Of a stretch of DNA of 64,000 bases, positions 36,051 to 56,852 are shown one piece after another. The DNA is from Hydrogenivirga caldilitoris (GTDB lineage: Bacteria > Aquificota > Aquificia > Aquificales > Aquificaceae). Each line of letters opens with the position of its first letter. Within the stretch, counting starts at the first letter, position 1. The notes under the pieces were generated by a model. It saw only the letters and a program-made list of their open reading frames with translations, ran no database searches and was not told the origin of the DNA. A program made the position numbers and the translations under genes. The stretch spans positions 62,001 through 126,000 of the forward strand of contig NZ_RCCJ01000001.1 in NCBI RefSeq assembly GCF_003664005.1. Reading direction: 5' to 3'.

Positions 36051-37741
36051 AGAGAGTTGTCGTTGACCCCGTAACGAGGATTGAGGGACATCTGAGGATA
36101 GAGGCTGAGGTCAAAGACGGAGTGATTCAGAAGGCTTACAGCTCAGGAACTATGGTCAGGGGGATAGAGATAATCCTGAGGGGCAGAGACCCCAGGGAAG
36201 CTTGGGCTTTCGCGCAGAGAATATGCGGTGTCTGCACAACAGTTCACGCCTTCGCCTCCATAAGGGCTGTTGAGGACGCCCTTGATATAGAAGTTCCAGA
36301 GAACGCCTCCCTCATAAGGAAGCTGATGATAGGGACCCTCTTCGTTCACGACCACGTTGTCCACTTCTACCATCTCCACGCCTTGGACTGGGTGAACCCT
36401 GTGCTGGCTCTCAAGGCAGACCCTGAAAAGACCTCCGAGCTTGCGAGGAAATATTCGGACTACGAGAAGTCCACCCCCGGATACTTCAGGGACGTCCAGA
36501 AGAAGGTCTTAGAGCAGGTGGAGAGGAAGCAGCTCGGGATATTCAGTAAAGGTTACTGGAACCATCCAGAGTACAAGCTTCCTCCTGAGCTGAACCTCAT
36601 GCTCCTCGCCCACTACCTTGACGCCCTCAACTGGCAGACGAGGGTAATTCAGGTTCACACCATTTTTGGAGGCAAGAACCCCCACCCCAACTTCGCCGTG
36701 GGAGGTATGCCCTCCCCCATAAACCCTGCAAGCGATACGGCTATAAACATGGACAGACTTGGTAGGGTAAGGACACTCATAGAGGAGATGAACCACTTTG
36801 TGGAGAAAGTCTATCTACCCGACCTGATAGCCCTCGGGCAGTTCTACAGGGACTGGTTCTTCAAGGGTGAAGGTCTCGGAAACTTCCTCGTTTTGGGAGA
36901 GCCTGAGAGAGACTCCCACAGGAAAGGTAAGTGGTTCATACCGCCGACATTTATAAAGGGCAGGAACCTTAAAGAGGTTGAGGATGTTGACTATCAAGAG
37001 GTGAAGGAGTATGTAACCCACAGCTGGTATAGATACTCCGTTGGAGACGACAAGCCCCTGCACCCCTTTGAAGGGGAGACGGAGCTCAATTACACAGGAC
37101 CCCAGCCTCCCTATGAGTATTTGAACGTTGATGAGAAATACTCATGGCTGAAGGCTCCGAGGTATAAGGACCTTCCCGCAGAGGTGGGACCCCTTGCGAG
37201 GGTTCTTACGATGTATGCGAGAGACCTCCACGGTGTTAGAGATGAGGTAAACGCTGTGCTAAAAGGTCTTGACCTGCCCCAGAAAGCTCTCTTCTCAACT
37301 CTTGGGAGGACATTGGCGAGGGGTATAGAAACCAAGGTCTACGCGAACGCCATGAGAGGCTGGTTTGGAAAGCTCCTGGAGAATGTGAAGAACGGAAATT
37401 ACGACGTTTTCAACGGTGAGAAGTGGGAACCTTCCACGTGGAAGAAAGATACTAAGGGGTTCGGACTCATGGAGGCTCCGAGGGGTTCCCTATCCCACTG
37501 GGTTCATATCAAAGATGGAAAGATAACCAACTATCAGGCTGTGGTGCCCACCACCTGGAACGCCTCTCCGAGGGACGCTAAGGGTCAGCCCTCTGCCTAC
37601 GAAGCATCCCTCGTAGGACATAAACTTCACAACCCCAAAGAACCTTTGGAGATTTTAAGAACGATTCACTCCTTTGACCCCTGTCTCGCCTGTGCCGTCC
37701 ATCTCTACGGGGAGGAGGAGCTGGAAATCAGGGTGGTGTGA
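36047..37741 (+). CDS. hynL: [NiFe] hydrogenase large subunit
   Basis: Catalytic subunit, 564 residues. Nickel ligands are C60/C63 in RICGVCTTVH and C546/C549 in DPCLACAVH. The 12 residues after His552 form the C-terminal peptide removed by a maturation endopeptidase, which is not encoded here. EGHLRIEAEV and FVHDHVVHFYHLHALDW are also typical. It overlaps isp2 by 4 bp and the convergent hypX by 14 bp. Other hyp genes must lie outside. Confidence 0.97.
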   Translation: MKRVVVDPVTRIEGHLRIEAEVKDGVIQKAYSSGTMVRGIEIILRGRDPREAWAFAQRICGVCTTVHAFASIRAVEDALDIEVPENASLIRKLMIGTLFVHDHVVHFYHLHALDWVNPVLALKADPEKTSELARKYSDYEKSTPGYFRDVQKKVLEQVERKQLGIFSKGYWNHPEYKLPPELNLMLLAHYLDALNWQTRVIQVHTIFGGKNPHPNFAVGGMPSPINPASDTAINMDRLGRVRTLIEEMNHFVEKVYLPDLIALGQFYRDWFFKGEGLGNFLVLGEPERDSHRKGKWFIPPTFIKGRNLKEVEDVDYQEVKEYVTHSWYRYSVGDDKPLHPFEGETELNYTGPQPPYEYLNVDEKYSWLKAPRYKDLPAEVGPLARVLTMYARDLHGVRDEVNAVLKGLDLPQKALFSTLGRTLARGIETKVYANAMRGWFGKLLENVKNGNYDVFNGEKWEPSTWKKDTKGFGLMEAPRGSLSHWVHIKDGKITNYQAVVPTTWNASPRDAKGQPSAYEASLVGHKLHNPKEPLEILRTIHSFDPCLACAVHLYGEEELEIRVV

Positions 37742-39422
37742 AGCCAAGCCTCCTGTGAATGGCGAGGTAGGGTGGTGTTCTGAAGTGGGGTAGCCTGTAA
37801 ACGAAGTAGTAACGGGCTATGTGGTAGCTCGTATCAAATCCGTAGAAGTTCAGCTTCATCCTCTCAAGCTCTTCTTCCCTGCACCTCTTTATAAGCTCTT
37901 CCCACTCAGGACTCGTCCTCTCCTTTACCTTTTCCCTTATGAAACTATCAAACTCAGGTGAGTCTACAAACTCCTCAACCCTTCTCTTCAGCTCTCTCCT
38001 GAACTCCGAAGGAGTCCTCCCGAAGACCTTATCTATCAGACCCATCTCCTGAGCCTGCTCGGAGCTTACGGGCATCCTCCTCTCCATGACCTCCCTTCCC
38101 TTCTCCCAGCCTACCCTCTTGGGCAGTGTATAGGTCCAGAACTCTGAGCCGTAGAGGTTCCCGATGTTCTTGTAGTGGGGGTTGAGAACTACCCCTTTCC
38201 TTGCGAAGACGAGGTCGCATGTTAGGGCTAAGAAGACACCTCCGGCTCCTGCGTTCCCCTGCATACCTGCAACGGTGAGCCTATCAGGAGTTTTGAGTAT
38301 CTCCTCGCACAGGTCGTCCATGGCGTTTATGTTCCTCCAGGACTCGTCGGGCGGACTCTCGGCGTTCTCTATGGTGTTCAGGTTCATACCGTTGGAGAAG
38401 AAGTCCTCCTGACCGAGAAGGACTATAGCCTTGACGGGTCTTCTCTTCGCATACCTCACGACGTCTCTGAGTTTCTCGCACTGCTCGGTAGACATAGCCC
38501 CGTTGTAAAAGTTGAAGTATATGTATGCGATGTCCTTCTCTTCCTCGTAGAGGATTTCCCTGTATGTTCTAACCTCAACCTTCTCCCAGGGCTTTATGGG
38601 AACTTCCGGGACTCTTTCGGCTATCCCAGGGAAAACCCTCAGAACCGGCAGTTTTATGGAGTTCTTTCCCCTTCTCCTCACGTGGGTTATCCACACCGCT
38701 CCGTCAGTCGTTCCGATGCATACAGCCTCGTCCCTGTGAGCTATGACCTCACCCGGTCTTCCCCTAAGCTCCTCCTCCGGGAAGGCGTTGTAAAGTAAGA
38801 CTTCTTCACCGAATACCTTTTCGTCTAAGACTCCCGGCTGGCTGTCTGAAGCGTAAACCTTTCTGAGGACATCCTCCGTCGTGTCCCTCTCCCAGTCTAT
38901 CCTCCTTACACTCTGCTCCATCTTGGGGTTCCACTTGCCTTCCCTCTGGGGCTCTGGCTTGAAGCCTCCCCTCTCAAACTTATCTATAGCCTCCAAAACG
39001 CACTCAACGGCAGATTCCGTTACCTCGTTCCTGTAGAGGCTTGACTTCCTCGCAAACCTCATGGGGAACTCCCTCCAAGCCCAGACATCCCCCGCATCGT
39101 ACTCCTCGGTAGCCTCAATCAGGGTAACTCCCCACCTCCTTTCGTTCTTAAGAATTGCCCAGTCAAGGGCTGAGGGACCCCTGTCTCCGGGAGGACCGGG
39201 GTGAATTACCAAAGTTTTATATTTACTCCACACCTCGGCAGGTATCTTCCTCCTCAGGAAAGGGGCTATTATGAGGTCTGGTCTGTAAAGCTCTGCAGCC
39301 TCTATCATTAGCTCAGGATGGACGTCCAGCTCAACGGAAACCTCATGCCCCCTCTCGGTCAGCTCACAGTAGAGCCTCTGGGAAAGGGAGTTGAAGCGGT
39401 AGCAGTAGAAAAGTACCCTCAT
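37728..39422 (-). CDS. hypX: HypX, CO-ligand synthase for [NiFe] hydrogenase
   Basis: 564 residues. N-terminal formyltransferase-type domain with VIHPGPPGDRGPSALDWAI (about 71-90) binds 10-formyl-THF. The C-terminal enoyl-CoA hydratase/isomerase fold (about 300-480; GQEDFFSNGMNLNTIE, MQGNAGAGGVFLALTCDL) is where formyl-CoA is decarbonylated to CO for the Fe site. HypX is known from organisms making hydrogenase in the presence of oxygen, and an Aquifex HypX has been studied structurally. Its 3' end overlaps hynL by 14 bp, so it is not co-transcribed with the structural genes. Confidence 0.95.
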   Translation of the reverse strand: MRVLFYCYRFNSLSQRLYCELTERGHEVSVELDVHPELMIEAAELYRPDLIIAPFLRRKIPAEVWSKYKTLVIHPGPPGDRGPSALDWAILKNERRWGVTLIEATEEYDAGDVWAWREFPMRFARKSSLYRNEVTESAVECVLEAIDKFERGGFKPEPQREGKWNPKMEQSVRRIDWERDTTEDVLRKVYASDSQPGVLDEKVFGEEVLLYNAFPEEELRGRPGEVIAHRDEAVCIGTTDGAVWITHVRRRGKNSIKLPVLRVFPGIAERVPEVPIKPWEKVEVRTYREILYEEEKDIAYIYFNFYNGAMSTEQCEKLRDVVRYAKRRPVKAIVLLGQEDFFSNGMNLNTIENAESPPDESWRNINAMDDLCEEILKTPDRLTVAGMQGNAGAGGVFLALTCDLVFARKGVVLNPHYKNIGNLYGSEFWTYTLPKRVGWEKGREVMERRMPVSSEQAQEMGLIDKVFGRTPSEFRRELKRRVEEFVDSPEFDSFIREKVKERTSPEWEELIKRCREEELERMKLNFYGFDTSYHIARYYFVYRLPHFRTPPYLAIHRRLGFTPP

Positions 39423-43402: not shown

Positions 43403-43657
43403 TTGGAAGGGATTGAAGAAAAGCTCAGCCGTATAAAGGAGAGGCTGCTTGACCCTTTCAACGTGGAGAACCTTGAAAAGGACTTTGAAGAGCTCCTTGG
43501 TCTCATGAAGAAGGCAGCGCCAGAAGAACTGGAAAAGGCGAGAGGGGAGTTTGAGGAAGTCAAGAAACTCCTCTCCAGGAATCTGTCCATAATATCAGGG
43601 AGTTTGAAACCTATCCTTGAGAGGGGACAGGGTGGACTCTTCTCACGGAGGGTGTGA
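43403..43657 (+). CDS. Small FlgN-like protein, probable chaperone for FlgK/FlgL
   Basis: 84 residues, entirely helical and charged, no membrane segment. TTG start supported by GGAGGT 6 nt upstream; no ATG is available. It sits directly before flgK, overlapping it by 1 bp, the usual place for flgN, and the fold prediction (coiled-coil helices) suits a FlgN-type export chaperone. Sequence identity to FlgN cannot be verified by eye, so the call rests on position and character. Confidence 0.55.
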   Translation: MEGIEEKLSRIKERLLDPFNVENLEKDFEELLGLMKKAAPEELEKARGEFEEVKKLLSRNLSIISGSLKPILERGQGGLFSRRV

Positions 43658-45243
43658 TGTTTGGAGCTTCCTTCGGTATAATCTCCCAGGCTCTTGAGAT
43701 ATACAGAAAATCCCTTGATATACATAACAGGAACGTTATTAACGCCAACAACCCGGACTATGTTCAGGAAGACCCTGTTGTGGAGAGCTTTGCCCCTGTA
43801 GGCATAAACTTTCAGGACGTGAGGAGGGACCAGAACATATACTACGTTAACCTCAGAAATGCGAAACTGTCCCTTGTTAGATACCTTGAGGAGAGGAGCG
43901 GGGTTCTTGAAAACGTTGAAGGTATATTTCAGGAGCTTTTTGAGGGGACAGGGATAAGCGACTACACAAACAGATTTTACAGTGCCTACCTTGACCTTAT
44001 GAAAGACCCTACCAACGAGGGGGCAAAGAACGAACTTTACAATGCGGCAAAGAGCCTATCAGACTTTTTAAGGGATAAATCAAGGGATATAGACGCTCTA
44101 AGCAACAGCATAGACTACAGCCTCAGGGACGTGGTCTCCAAAATAAACGAGCTGAACAGGAAACTCTTCAATATAAACAAAGAGATAACGGTAATGTATG
44201 CCCAGAACTATGCCAGGGGCAAGGACTATAAGAACCTGTTGGATACTAGGGATAAATACCTCAGGGAGCTCTCTGAACTCATAAACATAAACGTTCAGCA
44301 GGATGAGCTCGGAAGGGTGAAGGTAACTACCTCCAAGGGGTTTGCCCTCGTTGATTTTCAGGATAATTACTGGCAGTTAGAGTTCACGGGAGGAAGACTT
44401 TACTGGAAGTCTAAGGACGGAAACGATGTGGATATAACGGACGTTCTGGAATCAGGAAAGGTTAAAGCCCTCCTTGACGCAAAGGCAGACCTGGGAAGAT
44501 TCAAGAGTGAGTTGGATAGTATAGCTGCCCAGCTGATATCCGAGGTGAAACTACCCAGAGAGAACAGCGGGACTTGGTACCTCCTGACAAACTTAAGTGA
44601 CCCAACCCAGCCTCTTTCTACTTACGGTCTTGACGGAGACCTACAGTTCTATGATGCCTCTACAGACCCACCTACACTCCTTGCAACTATAAGTAATTAC
44701 GGAACTTTGTCCTTGAACGACCTGGCAAATGCTATAAATGCCAATGCAACCCTGACATCAGCGGGCTTCTCTGCAACTGTAGTAACTAACCCAGACGGGA
44801 CCTACACTCTAAGGATAGACAACGCGGGTTCAAATTATTCTGTTGTGGATACAGGAAACAATATATATGAAAGTTCTCCCGTGTTTACCGGAACCGATTC
44901 CTCCGACATAGCTCCTGTAAGCACCCTGCGCTCAGATATTGACGATATAGACTTCTCCCTTACAGACACCTTCAGCGATTATGCAAACACGTGGTGGGAT
45001 AATTCAAAAAGGAGGGTCAGTGATTTCATCAGTGATATATCCACAACCCAGGCTGACCTTAAGGACAAGCTCAGGATAGAATCCGCTCTGCTGGAATCCC
45101 TTGACAGGAAGTTGAAAGAAATGCAGGGAGTTTCAATTGATAGGGAGTTCATGGAGATAATGAAGGTTCAGAGGACTTACGAGGCTGTTGCGAAGATAGT
45201 TACCACTATAGACGAGCTCCTTCAGACAACTTTGAACATGTGA
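43657..45243 (+). CDS. flgK: Flagellar hook-associated protein 1, FlgK
   Basis: First hook-filament junction protein, 528 residues from ATG 43657 (a GTG one codon earlier is possible). Conserved N terminus (FGIISQALEIYRKSLDIHNRNVINANNPDYVQE) and C terminus (IDREFMEIMKVQRTYEAVAKIVTTIDELLQTTLNM) form the D0/D1 coiled coil. Residues about 305-410 form an insert closely related to one in FlgL. Followed by flgL 8 bp downstream. Confidence 0.95.
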   Translation: MFGASFGIISQALEIYRKSLDIHNRNVINANNPDYVQEDPVVESFAPVGINFQDVRRDQNIYYVNLRNAKLSLVRYLEERSGVLENVEGIFQELFEGTGISDYTNRFYSAYLDLMKDPTNEGAKNELYNAAKSLSDFLRDKSRDIDALSNSIDYSLRDVVSKINELNRKLFNINKEITVMYAQNYARGKDYKNLLDTRDKYLRELSELININVQQDELGRVKVTTSKGFALVDFQDNYWQLEFTGGRLYWKSKDGNDVDITDVLESGKVKALLDAKADLGRFKSELDSIAAQLISEVKLPRENSGTWYLLTNLSDPTQPLSTYGLDGDLQFYDASTDPPTLLATISNYGTLSLNDLANAINANATLTSAGFSATVVTNPDGTYTLRIDNAGSNYSVVDTGNNIYESSPVFTGTDSSDIAPVSTLRSDIDDIDFSLTDTFSDYANTWWDNSKRRVSDFISDISTTQADLKDKLRIESALLESLDRKLKEMQGVSIDREFMEIMKVQRTYEAVAKIVTTIDELLQTTLNM

Positions 45244-45251
45244 GGTGAGAT

Positions 45252-46697
45252 ATGAAAGTACCTGACAGCTTGCTGTATACGATTTTTCAACAGCAGGACG
45301 AAAAATTAAGGGAGAGCATAGCCAGAAAGACGATGGAGATATCTACCGGTAAGAGGGTTCATAACCTTTCCGATGACCCGGTTGCAACCTTTAACATACT
45401 GAGCCTCAGGAAAGATATCTCCCAGCTCTCCCAGTTCTCTAAGAACAGACTCTTTTCTGACGTTAACCTCTCTTACATTGACTTTACCCTTAACAAGGTT
45501 TCAGACAAGATAAAAGCTCTCTATACTAAGGCTGTTCAGGCAAAGAATGAGCTCCATACTAAGGACGCCCTTATCGCCATGAGTGCAGAGTTTGATGAAG
45601 CCCTTGGTTTCCTCCTTGACAGGGCTAATGAAAAGGTTGGAGAGAACTATATATTTTCAGGTTCTGCTCTCACAACAAGACCCTTTTCTGCAAATTTCAC
45701 ATATCAAGGTTCCCAGGAACCCTTTAACGTTCAAATAGACGAGAGCAATTTTACCGAAGTCTTCTCCCCCGGTAGCAGGGTATTCTCTACAAACGTGTAT
45801 CAGCTTGACGCCTTCTTTACAACTCCCACGACCCCCTTTGGTGTATCGGGAACCCTAAACGTGAACTACAACAGCACTACCGTTAGCCTTGATTACGGGA
45901 GAGGAGTGTGGTACCTTGCCGGGAAGGTATCAGACCCGAATGAGCCTCTCACTAACTATGGTTTTGATGGAGACCTGATACTCTATGATAGCGGTATGAA
46001 CGAGCTTGCTCGTATATCCAACTATGGGCAGTATTCTCTAAACGACCTTATAACCCAGATAAACACAAGCTTTGGTAGTGAGAATATCAGTGCGTCTCTG
46101 GTTACCAACCCGGACGGAACTTATACGCTCCGTATCGCTGACGGAGATTCACCTGCGGATAATTTCATAGCCGACACTTCCGGCAACGTTCTTGAGAGTA
46201 ACAACCTGGAGAATTTTGTAAGCATATTCAACGGTATATCTCCGGGAGATGTGAATGCCTTTGTTCACCAGGCTCCCTCTGGTATGTACACCCTTAGGCT
46301 TGCCCCTGAAGATGTATCAACTACACTGAACCTGAGCTTCACGGGTTCCGGCTTGGGAAGTTTCTTCGCACCCAATATTTTCCAGCTGATAAACGAAGTA
46401 AAGGAGAAGCTTGCCAACGGGTTGAACCCGGACGACTCAGACCTTATGGCTGTTCAGCGGTCTTACGATAAGGTTGTCTCTGAGAGGAGCAGGTTCGGGA
46501 GTATACTTTCCCAGGTTAAAGACCAACAACCCGTTCAGGAGAACAGGATGGATGTCCTCAAAAAGCAGAAATCTGATAACGAGGAGGTTGAGCTTTCTGA
46601 AAGCATAATGGAGTACACCCGTTACAGAACAGCTTACGAAGCCCTCATGAGGATAGTTGCCGATACCAAGGATATGACCATACTCAGGTATATCTGA
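45252..46697 (+). CDS. flgL: Flagellar hook-associated protein 3, FlgL
   Basis: Second junction protein, 481 residues. N terminus MKVPDSLLYTIFQQQDEKLRESIARKTMEISTGKRVHNLSDDP and C terminus SESIMEYTRYRTAYEALMRIVADTKDMTILRYI are flagellin-like helices. It is longer than typical FlgL (about 300 residues) because of central insertions, including residues about 218-318, which match the insert in FlgK. The stop is 1 bp from the convergent gene's stop. Confidence 0.93.
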   Translation: MKVPDSLLYTIFQQQDEKLRESIARKTMEISTGKRVHNLSDDPVATFNILSLRKDISQLSQFSKNRLFSDVNLSYIDFTLNKVSDKIKALYTKAVQAKNELHTKDALIAMSAEFDEALGFLLDRANEKVGENYIFSGSALTTRPFSANFTYQGSQEPFNVQIDESNFTEVFSPGSRVFSTNVYQLDAFFTTPTTPFGVSGTLNVNYNSTTVSLDYGRGVWYLAGKVSDPNEPLTNYGFDGDLILYDSGMNELARISNYGQYSLNDLITQINTSFGSENISASLVTNPDGTYTLRIADGDSPADNFIADTSGNVLESNNLENFVSIFNGISPGDVNAFVHQAPSGMYTLRLAPEDVSTTLNLSFTGSGLGSFFAPNIFQLINEVKEKLANGLNPDDSDLMAVQRSYDKVVSERSRFGSILSQVKDQQPVQENRMDVLKKQKSDNEEVELSESIMEYTRYRTAYEALMRIVADTKDMTILRYI

Positions 46698-52428: not shown

Positions 52429-52775
52429 TGGTGGAGGCGGCGGGAATCGAACCCGCGTCCGAGGACGATGACCCGGTCCGGGGCTCTACAGGCTTAGCCC
52501 GTGTTTGGTTCTGCCCTCAGGTTGCCCACGGGCAGGCTTCCCGAGGGGAGCACGGGTACTTTCTCGGAAGCTCCTCACCGTGCATTGGAGCTTCCCAGCC
52601 TCTGTTCTCTGACGCCTTCAGGTCAGCCAGAGGCGAACCTCCCTGAGGCGCGCTGCCTTTTTAATTAGGCAGCGAGAGCGACTTCAGCTTCGGGAAGTGT
52701 TGTGAATGGCTGTTAAGGTTGCCAACCTGCCTGCTCCCCGGGGACCATCAGACCCCGTCGAAACCTGTCGCCCCC
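52429..52775 (-). ncRNA. ssrA: tmRNA
   Basis: 347-nt transfer-messenger RNA that rescues stalled ribosomes. The 5' GGGGGCG pairs with the 3' CGCCTCC; TTTCGACGGGG follows the 5' stem; the 3' end has GGACGCGGGTTCGATTCCCGCC (T arm) and an encoded CCA at 52431-52429. The tag reading frame ends PEAEVALAA then TAA-TTAA (stop at 52667-52665). By alignment with the usual position before CCC-GAA-GCT, the resume codon would be CTT (52697-52695), giving LPEAEVALAA, where most tmRNAs use a GCN codon. Its 3' end lies 4 bp from the convergent cyclase gene. Confidence 0.95.
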
Positions 52776-54530: not shown

Positions 54531-56852
54531 ATGGAGGAATCAGCGAGAGTAGGGAACAGTAAAGAGCCGATAGTAATAGAAGTAGGCAAGTATGCAAAGC
54601 AGGCAGATGGAGCGGTAGTAGTAAAGCAAGGCGGAACGGCAGTACTTGTTACTGCCGTCATGGCCGACGAGCCGAATAAAGACATAGATTTTACCCCTTT
54701 GACGGTTGATTACAGGGAGAGACCTTCCGCTTACGGAAAGATACCCGGAGGATTCGTCAAAAGGGAAGGCAAGCCCAGCGATAGAGAGATACTCGCTTCC
54801 AGAGTTATAGACAGACCTCTCAGACCTCTCTTTCCCGAGGGTTTTTTCCATGATGTGGTTGTTACAGCTCTCACTCTTTCGGCGGATGACAACTATGACC
54901 CCGATGTACTTGCTATAACAGGTGCTTCGGCTGCCCTTCATATATCCAGGATACCCTTTGAGGGACCTATAGCAGGTGTTAGGGTTTGCAGGGTCAACGG
55001 AGAGTTTATAGCTAACCCCACCTATGAGGAGAGGAAGGAAGCAGACTTGGAGATAGTTATGGCTGGTACTAAAGATGCCATAGTCATGGTTGAAGGGGGA
55101 GCAAAGGAGGTCCCTGAGGAAATCGTAACGGAGGCTTTATTCTTTGGACACCAGGCGATACAGGAATCTTTAGAGGCTCAAGAGAGGCTCCGTAGTGCGG
55201 TAGGTGTTCCAAAGGTTGGGTTTGAAGGGGTGAAACTTGATGAGTCCCTCTTGAAGTTTCTTGAGGTAGAGTGTTCCGAGAGGATAATCTCAGCCTTTGG
55301 TATACAGGACAAGAGTGAGAGAAACAAGACCCTCGCAGGCATACTTCAGGAGTTTATAGATAGGCACGAGATCCCTGAGGAACTTCACTTCAATGTGAAA
55401 TACTTCTTCAAGAAGCTTGAAAGTAAGCTCATGAGGGAGAAGATCCTAAGGGAGGGTGTAAGGATAGATGGAAGGGGTCCAAAGGAGATAAGACCTATAA
55501 CCATAGAAATTCACCCCTTTGATAGACCTCACGGCTGTGCGGTTTTCACAAGGGGACAAACCCAAGCCTACGTTACAGTTACCCTGGGTGCTCCCGATGA
55601 GGCTCAACTTATTGAAACCATAGCTGAAGGCGGTGTTTTTAAAAGGTTCATGCTGCACTATAACTTTCCTCCCTTTTCAAGCGGTGAAGCTCGCTCGTGG
55701 GGTCCTCCCAGACGGAGAGAGATAGGGCACGGAGCTCTCGCTGAGAGGGCTCTTGAACCCGTGATTCCGGAGGAGGAGCAGTTCCCTTACATAATCAGGG
55801 TAGTCTCGGACATACTTGAGTCAAACGGTTCAACTTCCATGGCAACGGTCTGCGGAGGTTCACTCGCTCTGTTTGATGCGGGTGTCCCGGTCAAGGGTGG
55901 CAAGCATGTCTCCGGTATAGCCATGGGTCTAATAAAGGAGGGAGACAGTTACGTGATACTCTCCGATATACTTGGCGATGAGGACCACCTCGGGGATATG
56001 GACTTCAAAGTCGCCGGAACTAAGGACGGGGTTACGTCAATTCAAATGGATATAAAGATAAAAGGTATAACTAAGGAGATAATGACCGAAGCCCTCCAAC
56101 AGGCTAAGGAGGGAAGGTTATACATCCTTGAGAAGATGTACGAGGCGATACCCGAACCCAGAAAAGAGCTATCTCCTTACGCTCCCAGAATAGTCATACA
56201 CAAGGTTCCCGAGGAGAAGGTTGCCCTTGTCATAGGACCCGGAGGTTCAAACGTTAAGAAGATATACGAAGAAACTGAAGTAAAGATATGGGTTGGAGAT
56301 GAGGGGAAAGTATACCTGACAGGATTTTCCGATGAGGCTATCCAGAAAGCGATAAGTATGATAGACAGCCTCGTTAAGGACCTTGAGGTTGGCAAGGTAT
56401 ACGAGGGTAAAGTGACCAGGGTGGAGCCTTACGGCGTTTTTATTGAGGTTCTACCTGGAAAAGTCGGGCTACTCCACGTATCCAAGATGGCGCAGCCGGT
56501 GAAACACGCTGGGGATAAATACAGCGTTGGTGATGTCGTTAAGATTAAGGTCCTTGAGATAGACGAAATGGGAAGACCGAAGTTCACTACGATTGGACTT
56601 GACGGTGAGAGTGCACCTCCCGTTGAAGAGATTGAGGTTGGCAAGGTGTACGAGGGTAAAGTGACCAGGGTGGAGCCTTACGGCGTTTTTATTGAGGTGC
56701 TACCTGGAAAGGTCGGACTACTCCACGTGGACAATATGAAGGAGAGGGTGAGGGATGCCAGGGAACTCTTCGCAGTTGGTCAGAGAGTTAAGGTGAAGGT
56801 TTTTGAGCTTGACGAAAGAGGAAGACCCAAGCTAACCGATAAGATAGACTGA
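54531..56852 (+). CDS. pnp: Polynucleotide phosphorylase with two C-terminal S1 domains
   Basis: 3'-to-5' phosphorolytic exoribonuclease of mRNA decay. At 773 residues it is about 60-70 longer than usual. Two RNase PH-like cores (about 10-145 and 310-545), a KH domain (about 555-612, [10 protein letters not shown]), then S1 domain 1 (about 618-690) and S1 domain 2 (about 701-773). The two S1 copies share an identical run of 32 residues starting [17 protein letters not shown]. Standard PNPase has a single S1. ATG lies 1 bp after the rpsO stop, so translation is coupled. Confidence 0.97.
56383..56479 (+). repeat. Intragenic direct repeat, copy 1 (pnp S1 domain 1)
   Basis: 97-bp unit beginning TTGAGGTTGGCAAGG, repeated 249 bp downstream. 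Copies differ at 4 positions within the 97 bp, all third-codon synonymous changes. Confidence 0.9.
56632..56728 (+). repeat. Intragenic direct repeat, copy 2 (pnp S1 domain 2)
   Basis: Second 97-bp copy, 83 codons after the first and in the same frame. Similarity falls off sharply downstream of CTCCACGT, where the two S1 domains become divergent at protein level. Confidence 0.9.

Follow-up and report, generated by a model that had tools for sequence, protein, structure and literature searches.

In the hook-filament junction of Salmonella, FlgK and FlgL form stacked 11-subunit rings whose D2 domains lie outside (PMC12221982). The D2 domain of Xanthomonas campestris FlgL resembles that of Burkholderia pseudomallei FlgK, a structural likeness concerning one D2 per protein, for which a quasi-homotypic D2-D2 contact has been proposed (PMC6155364). 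Extra outer domains are found in B. pseudomallei FlgK (4ut1), the D3 of which is folded like its own D2, and also in FlgK and FlgL of Campylobacter (5xbj, 9gsx; PMC5691160), where FlgL comprises 750-950 aa; none of them is known as a copy from the partner protein. A further related domain, Flagellin_IN (PF07196) of FliD and flagellins, has the same strand-strand-helix-strand-strand order as the modules described below, together with an 'N-aINs' helix and a DGtYtLrI strand. Generally, the outer domains of flagellar axial proteins vary greatly and the origin of new ones is rarely traceable. At the locus studied here, a similar outer domain was detected in both junction proteins, as in Xanthomonas and Burkholderia, but FlgL contains in addition an extra, apparently FlgK-derived copy nested in its native D2. 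In this case, the donor and recipient genes, the point of insertion, the state of the site before insertion (preserved in relatives) and the time window of the event could all be read. While the evolution of outer domains in junction proteins is known, a traceable FlgK copy nested in FlgL appears to be new, and we regard it as real and well supported; in a literature search of partial coverage, no description of FlgL having acquired a FlgK domain was found.

The window, i.e. the whole stretch of DNA analyzed, comprises 64 kb (positions 62001-126000) of a complete genome of 1.75 Mb (G000), which belongs to a genus of hot-vent bacteria within the family Aquificaceae (genus label g1). Within it, flgK encoding the hook-filament junction protein 1 is located on the forward strand at 43657..45243 and codes for 528 aa from the ATG at 43657, the preceding codon being a GTG at 43654. 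On the same strand, flgL (45252..46697) encodes the hook-filament junction protein 3 of 481 aa. Both products were assigned at the equivalog level by matches comprising the N- and C-terminal core, FlgK with 254.5 bits to NCBIfam TIGR02492 (cutoff 170.75; two stretches) and FlgL with 208.2 bits to TIGR02550 (cutoff 127.2). The two genes are adjacent and co-directional with only 8 bases between them, and they adjoin genes for a chemotaxis receptor and a potassium channel, not a flagellar operon.

A search of the whole genome revealed that FlgK 306-408 and FlgL 217-318 share a core of approximately 100 aa with 53% identity (E=4e-23); for the full pair, BLASTP gave 99.8 bits (E=9e-27). The homology of the two segments reported in an earlier note on this DNA, including its coordinates and motif blocks, was thus correct. 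The core alignment reached a score of 239, whereas 1000 shuffles resulted in a mean of 34.6 (sd 6.6) and a maximum of 62, by which a chance likeness was ruled out. Searches across the 1.75-Mb genome, FliD and flagellin included, gave strong matches to the shared segment in FlgK and FlgL alone, while FliD and flagellin matched weakly. A wide spread of the module through the genome was thereby ruled out as well.

For comparison, FlgK and FlgL sequences were collected from about 60 genomes, all from the phylum Aquificota. Within the Aquificaceae, FlgK/FlgL pairs lacking the extra FlgL copy showed background values of 20-68 bits with a median of about 42; in the whole collection, most pairs outside g1 had 15-50 bits. 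G012 and the genus g11, which are the closest relatives that lack the copy, yielded 20-24 bits. Values of 61-100 bits were obtained for those g1 pairs whose FlgK domain and FlgL copy were both readable. These values were the highest of all apart from a single g8 pair of 68 bits, which marked the top of the background and came from a genome (G050) that we take to be of the Thermocrinis albus type. An exchange between FlgK and FlgL in G050 was ruled out by the fact that each domain was nearest to its own ortholog. The values of the g1 pairs compared to the 20-24 bits of the nearest relatives also ruled out the general FlgK/FlgL background as the whole explanation; the similarity is greater than that of FlgK and FlgL in the family at large, contrary to the refuting condition set by the earlier note. 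The earlier note had furthermore claimed a match of the DNA. A nucleotide identity of 55% was indeed determined, but it reflects the protein, as the match at third bases was not above chance: the third codon base was common to 19 of 53 identical residues, while 23.8 were expected from codon usage. In addition, a repeat search disclosed no long direct DNA repeat between the FlgK and FlgL segments. A recent duplication at the DNA level was ruled out by these two results, and the third-base identity indicates that the copy is old.

The shared module is a divergent Flagellin_IN-type domain. The Pfam profile PF07196 matched 12 of the 19 FlgK/FlgL domain copies, the best with 8.6e-8. The FlgK copy in the window gave 14.4 bits, which is below the cutoff of 22.7, and the Pfam profile search yielded no PF07196 match in the window FlgL protein. 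As copies from relatives reached the 8.6e-8, the module is remote kin of Flagellin_IN rather than a filed member. In the same genome, FliD exceeded the PF07196 cutoff with 42 bits, whereas flagellin narrowly missed it (22.3 vs 22.7 bits), and residues 116-204 of FliD matched the profile of the native FlgL domain at 8e-14. The four axial proteins FlgK, FlgL, FliD and flagellin thus all carry IN-type domains, and the flagellin IN/FliD-type motif suspected from the pattern in the earlier note was corroborated. Compared to Flagellin_IN, the FlgK and FlgL modules are longer, being extended by a WYL block at the N-terminus and a hairpin at the C-terminus. The IN-type domain of the FliD (L105:3563-4906, near 13.6 kb of G000) matched the FlgK module at 1e-4 and is thus nearer to the native domain of FlgL, hinting that the domains of FlgL and FliD may be the older pair.

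In FlgK, the module occupies the D2 position (44569..44877, forward strand; GTWYL...NIYESS; domain profile i-E 3e-43) and represents the donor-type domain. The native outer domain of FlgL, as seen in the family, is of the same type and consists of two strands, a helix 'LQELVDAIN' and further strands ending with 'DGTYTLRL'. Against the window FlgL, the FlgK-module profile produced three matches, namely a full copy at residues 219-318 with 83 bits and a fragment flanking it on each side. With the native-FlgL profile, the fragments turned out to be the native domain split in two, with profile positions 2-38 preceding and 39-88 following the copy. Hence, the 5′ half of the native D2 (45792..45899; residues 181-217 with strands 200-206 and 209-215) is followed on the forward strand by the nested FlgK-type module (45900..46205; residues 217-318, RGVWYL...VLESNN; FlgK-domain profile i-E 8e-26) and this by the 3′ half (46206..46346; residues 316-365 with helix 319-329 and strands 334-340, 346-352 and 360-365). 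The insertion point follows the second strand of the native D2 and precedes its helix. In FlgL of G012, G062 and G063 the native domain is uninterrupted and provides the empty site, while it is split at one point in the window FlgL.

The same architecture emerged from an AlphaFold2 model of FlgL (m2073aaec76f1), which was built on ten sequences and matches solved FlgL structures. It shows a second module, complete in itself, at 219-315, which is preceded by the native strands 200-206 and 209-215 and followed by the native helix 319-329 and strands within 334-365; both modules were modelled with a pLDDT of about 95, which was retained throughout the nested region. Structural prediction, which the earlier note had proposed as a check, thus bore out the insert. 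The FlgK model (mcf83d74681ea) had its best match in Campylobacter FlgK 5xbj with a TM of 0.57, and with our domain profile (A3) no sequence match was found to Campylobacter FlgK or FlgL. The elements of the FlgK D2 (E306-309, H320-323, E329-333, E340-345, H353-362, E372-377, E383-388, E394-398 and E403-408) recur one for one in the strand/helix order of the FlgL insert. Moreover, the insert begins and ends where the FlgK module does, and the same unit is missing from FlgK of the genus g2. The FlgL D2 has become a module within a module, in which a FlgK-type copy is enclosed by a native domain of like type.

Among the flagellated Aquificaceae genera found, g2 was the only one whose FlgK lacked the module. 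The insert in FlgL was present in 12 of the 13 readable g1 flgL genes, a count that leaves out G016, whose FlgL is cut by a contig end, as well as G010, G011 and G021, which gave no full FlgL; it was absent from g11, g6, g8, g9 and g10. In the FlgK of G020 and G022 (L052 and L053) the module has strongly diverged and displays an internal strand-pair repeat (YDSSNN..GRI / YDxxNxLLATY), the FlgL insert of these genomes still being typical. G012 was the sole readable g1 species without the insert, and the sister genus g11 possesses the empty site, too. The G012 FlgL (L043) is intact, uninserted and 400 aa in size, and the branch of G012 in the core tree is long. G012 has either retained the ancestral state or lost the insert cleanly. 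In the FlgK and FlgL core tree it was placed inside g1, so that one loss may be needed, yet a basal position was not rejected (p=0.33). The insert may have been gained after the split of G012, or earlier with one loss.

In the domain tree the twelve g1 inserts formed one clade with a support of 100/99. Together with the FlgK modules of g1 and g11 they constituted a clade supported by 100/100, which included neither native FlgL domains nor FlgK modules from other genera. The best tree, comprising about 100 columns, placed the inserts inside the FlgK copies, yet a separate clade of g1 and g11 FlgK was not rejected (p=0.41). The fact that the inserts make up one clade within the g1/g11 FlgK copies points to a single ancient event. 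Its direction was most likely from FlgK to FlgL as suggested by the wider distribution of the module in FlgK, the tree alone being indecisive. Two pairs with measurable dS gave dN/dS values of about 0.14-0.15, and the insert was as conserved as the native D2 (0.66 vs 0.62-0.66). Both findings indicate that the insert is maintained by purifying selection.

We therefore favor the explanation that the FlgK D2, which is an alpha/beta module of the IN type with about 100 residues, was probably copied once into the loop of the FlgL D2 between the second strand and the helix, and that this would have happened in the ancestor of most or all g1 species. We assign to it an overall probability of about 0.85, a figure that applies mainly to the evolutionary part; considered separately, this part is highly probable and slightly safer than the whole. 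According to the earlier note, the adjacent genes seemed to have exchanged or duplicated a surface domain. Duplication was upheld, while an exchange is at odds with a single old copy nested in the native FlgL domain.

A second case was encountered in g4, presumably the Hydrogenobaculum-type genus (Y04AAS1). In its genomes (G029-G033; L061-L065), FlgL comprises about 600 aa, while FlgK reaches about 840 aa and contains about four modules of the IN type. In FlgL, the native domain is interrupted at the same point by a nested module (halves with profile positions 2-39 and 37-87), and a further native-type copy is located downstream. This insert resides on a long branch and scored 42.6 bits with the FlgK profile vs 33.1 bits with the FlgL profile, while the tree favored neither an origin from FlgK nor one from FlgL (p=0.56). 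One might assume that a nested insertion took place very early, in the ancestor of the family, so that it is common to g1 and g4, was lost elsewhere and later became FlgK-like in g1. The shared position within the native domain (profile positions 37-39) would agree with such a history, but we consider it improbable, as a joint clade of the g4 and g1 inserts was worse by 18.6 lnL units (p=0.08), the g1 inserts join the g1/g11 FlgK at 100/100, and several losses plus a conversion would be required. By these sequence comparisons, the nested module of g4 is probably independent of the g1 event. A more general model, which we consider doubtful though conceivable, would take the FlgL D2 loop as a landing site that received nested IN-type modules in two or more Aquificaceae genera independently, from FlgK in g1 and from FlgK or a sister copy in g4; the partner rings would repeatedly evolve matching outer domains by mutual copying, and like modules would touch across the FlgK-FlgL boundary.

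The earlier note had also suggested that the additional domain stabilizes the junction at high temperature. All hosts are indeed from thermophilic lineages, but adaptation to heat is quite unlikely to explain the module. Aquifex aeolicus is the hottest member of the family, and the genus g2 (G001), which we take to be the Aquifex aeolicus-type genus, lacks both the FlgK module and the FlgL insert, which leaves heat stabilization unsupported. Hydrogenobaculum thrives in cooler, acidic springs, and g4 has the most copies.

Very little probability remains for an ordinary ancient kinship, according to which FlgK and FlgL each possess an old IN-type D2 and owe their likeness to nothing but this background. 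The resemblance of FlgL D2 and FlgK D2 in the Xanthomonas/Burkholderia structures (PMC6155364) and the matches of native FlgL domains to the FlgK-domain profile, which across the family were weak (18-45 bits, about 1e-5 to 1e-14), are in line with it. However, the window FlgL possesses a second, extra copy that reached 83 bits with this profile, the copy lies inside a still recognizable native domain, and sister taxa do not have it. Furthermore, forcing all FlgL domains into one clade was rejected (22.9 lnL units worse, p=0.024). Ancient kinship is thus refuted for the insert and holds true for the native FlgL domain only. Least probable of all is an ongoing gene conversion that keeps the two modules alike: FlgK/FlgL scores within genomes exceeded those between genomes only very slightly (0.393 vs 0.381; permutation p=0.048), same-genome copies being hardly more alike than copies from different genomes, while the FlgL inserts group together (100/99) and not with the FlgK of their own genome, and synonymous positions are no more alike than by chance.

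Returning to the copying of the FlgK D2 into FlgL, the sequences suggest that in g1 the FlgK ring and the FlgL ring, stacked in the hook-filament junction, display a common outer module. The copy probably enlarges the outer surface of FlgL, and like modules of neighboring FlgK and FlgL subunits may pack together, by which the junction would be stiffened or shielded. By analogy with the known junctions, an enlarged FlgL outer domain with matching modules possibly packing at the boundary of the FlgK and FlgL rings is a tentative proposal. The locus offers a concrete, testable example of how proteins that cooperate in one machine acquire matched surfaces when a domain is copied, and a natural comparison is provided by relatives that have or lack the module.

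Some other features of the window were recorded. No tRNA genes were found within the 64 kb. A tmRNA gene on the reverse strand (52429-52775), which was missed by ARAGORN, was identified by an Rfam match of 144.6 bits. The polynucleotide phosphorylase gene (54531-56852, forward strand) encodes a protein whose C-terminal S1 domain is tandemly duplicated. One S1 domain is usual for this enzyme; here, two S1 stretches are encoded by repeat copies at 56372-56587 and 56621-56836 (216 nt each, 78% identical, spacing 249). This duplication looks younger than the copy shared by FlgK and FlgL. Finally, a gene at 37728-39422 on the reverse strand codes for fused formyltransferase and enoyl-CoA hydratase domains in a HypX-type arrangement.
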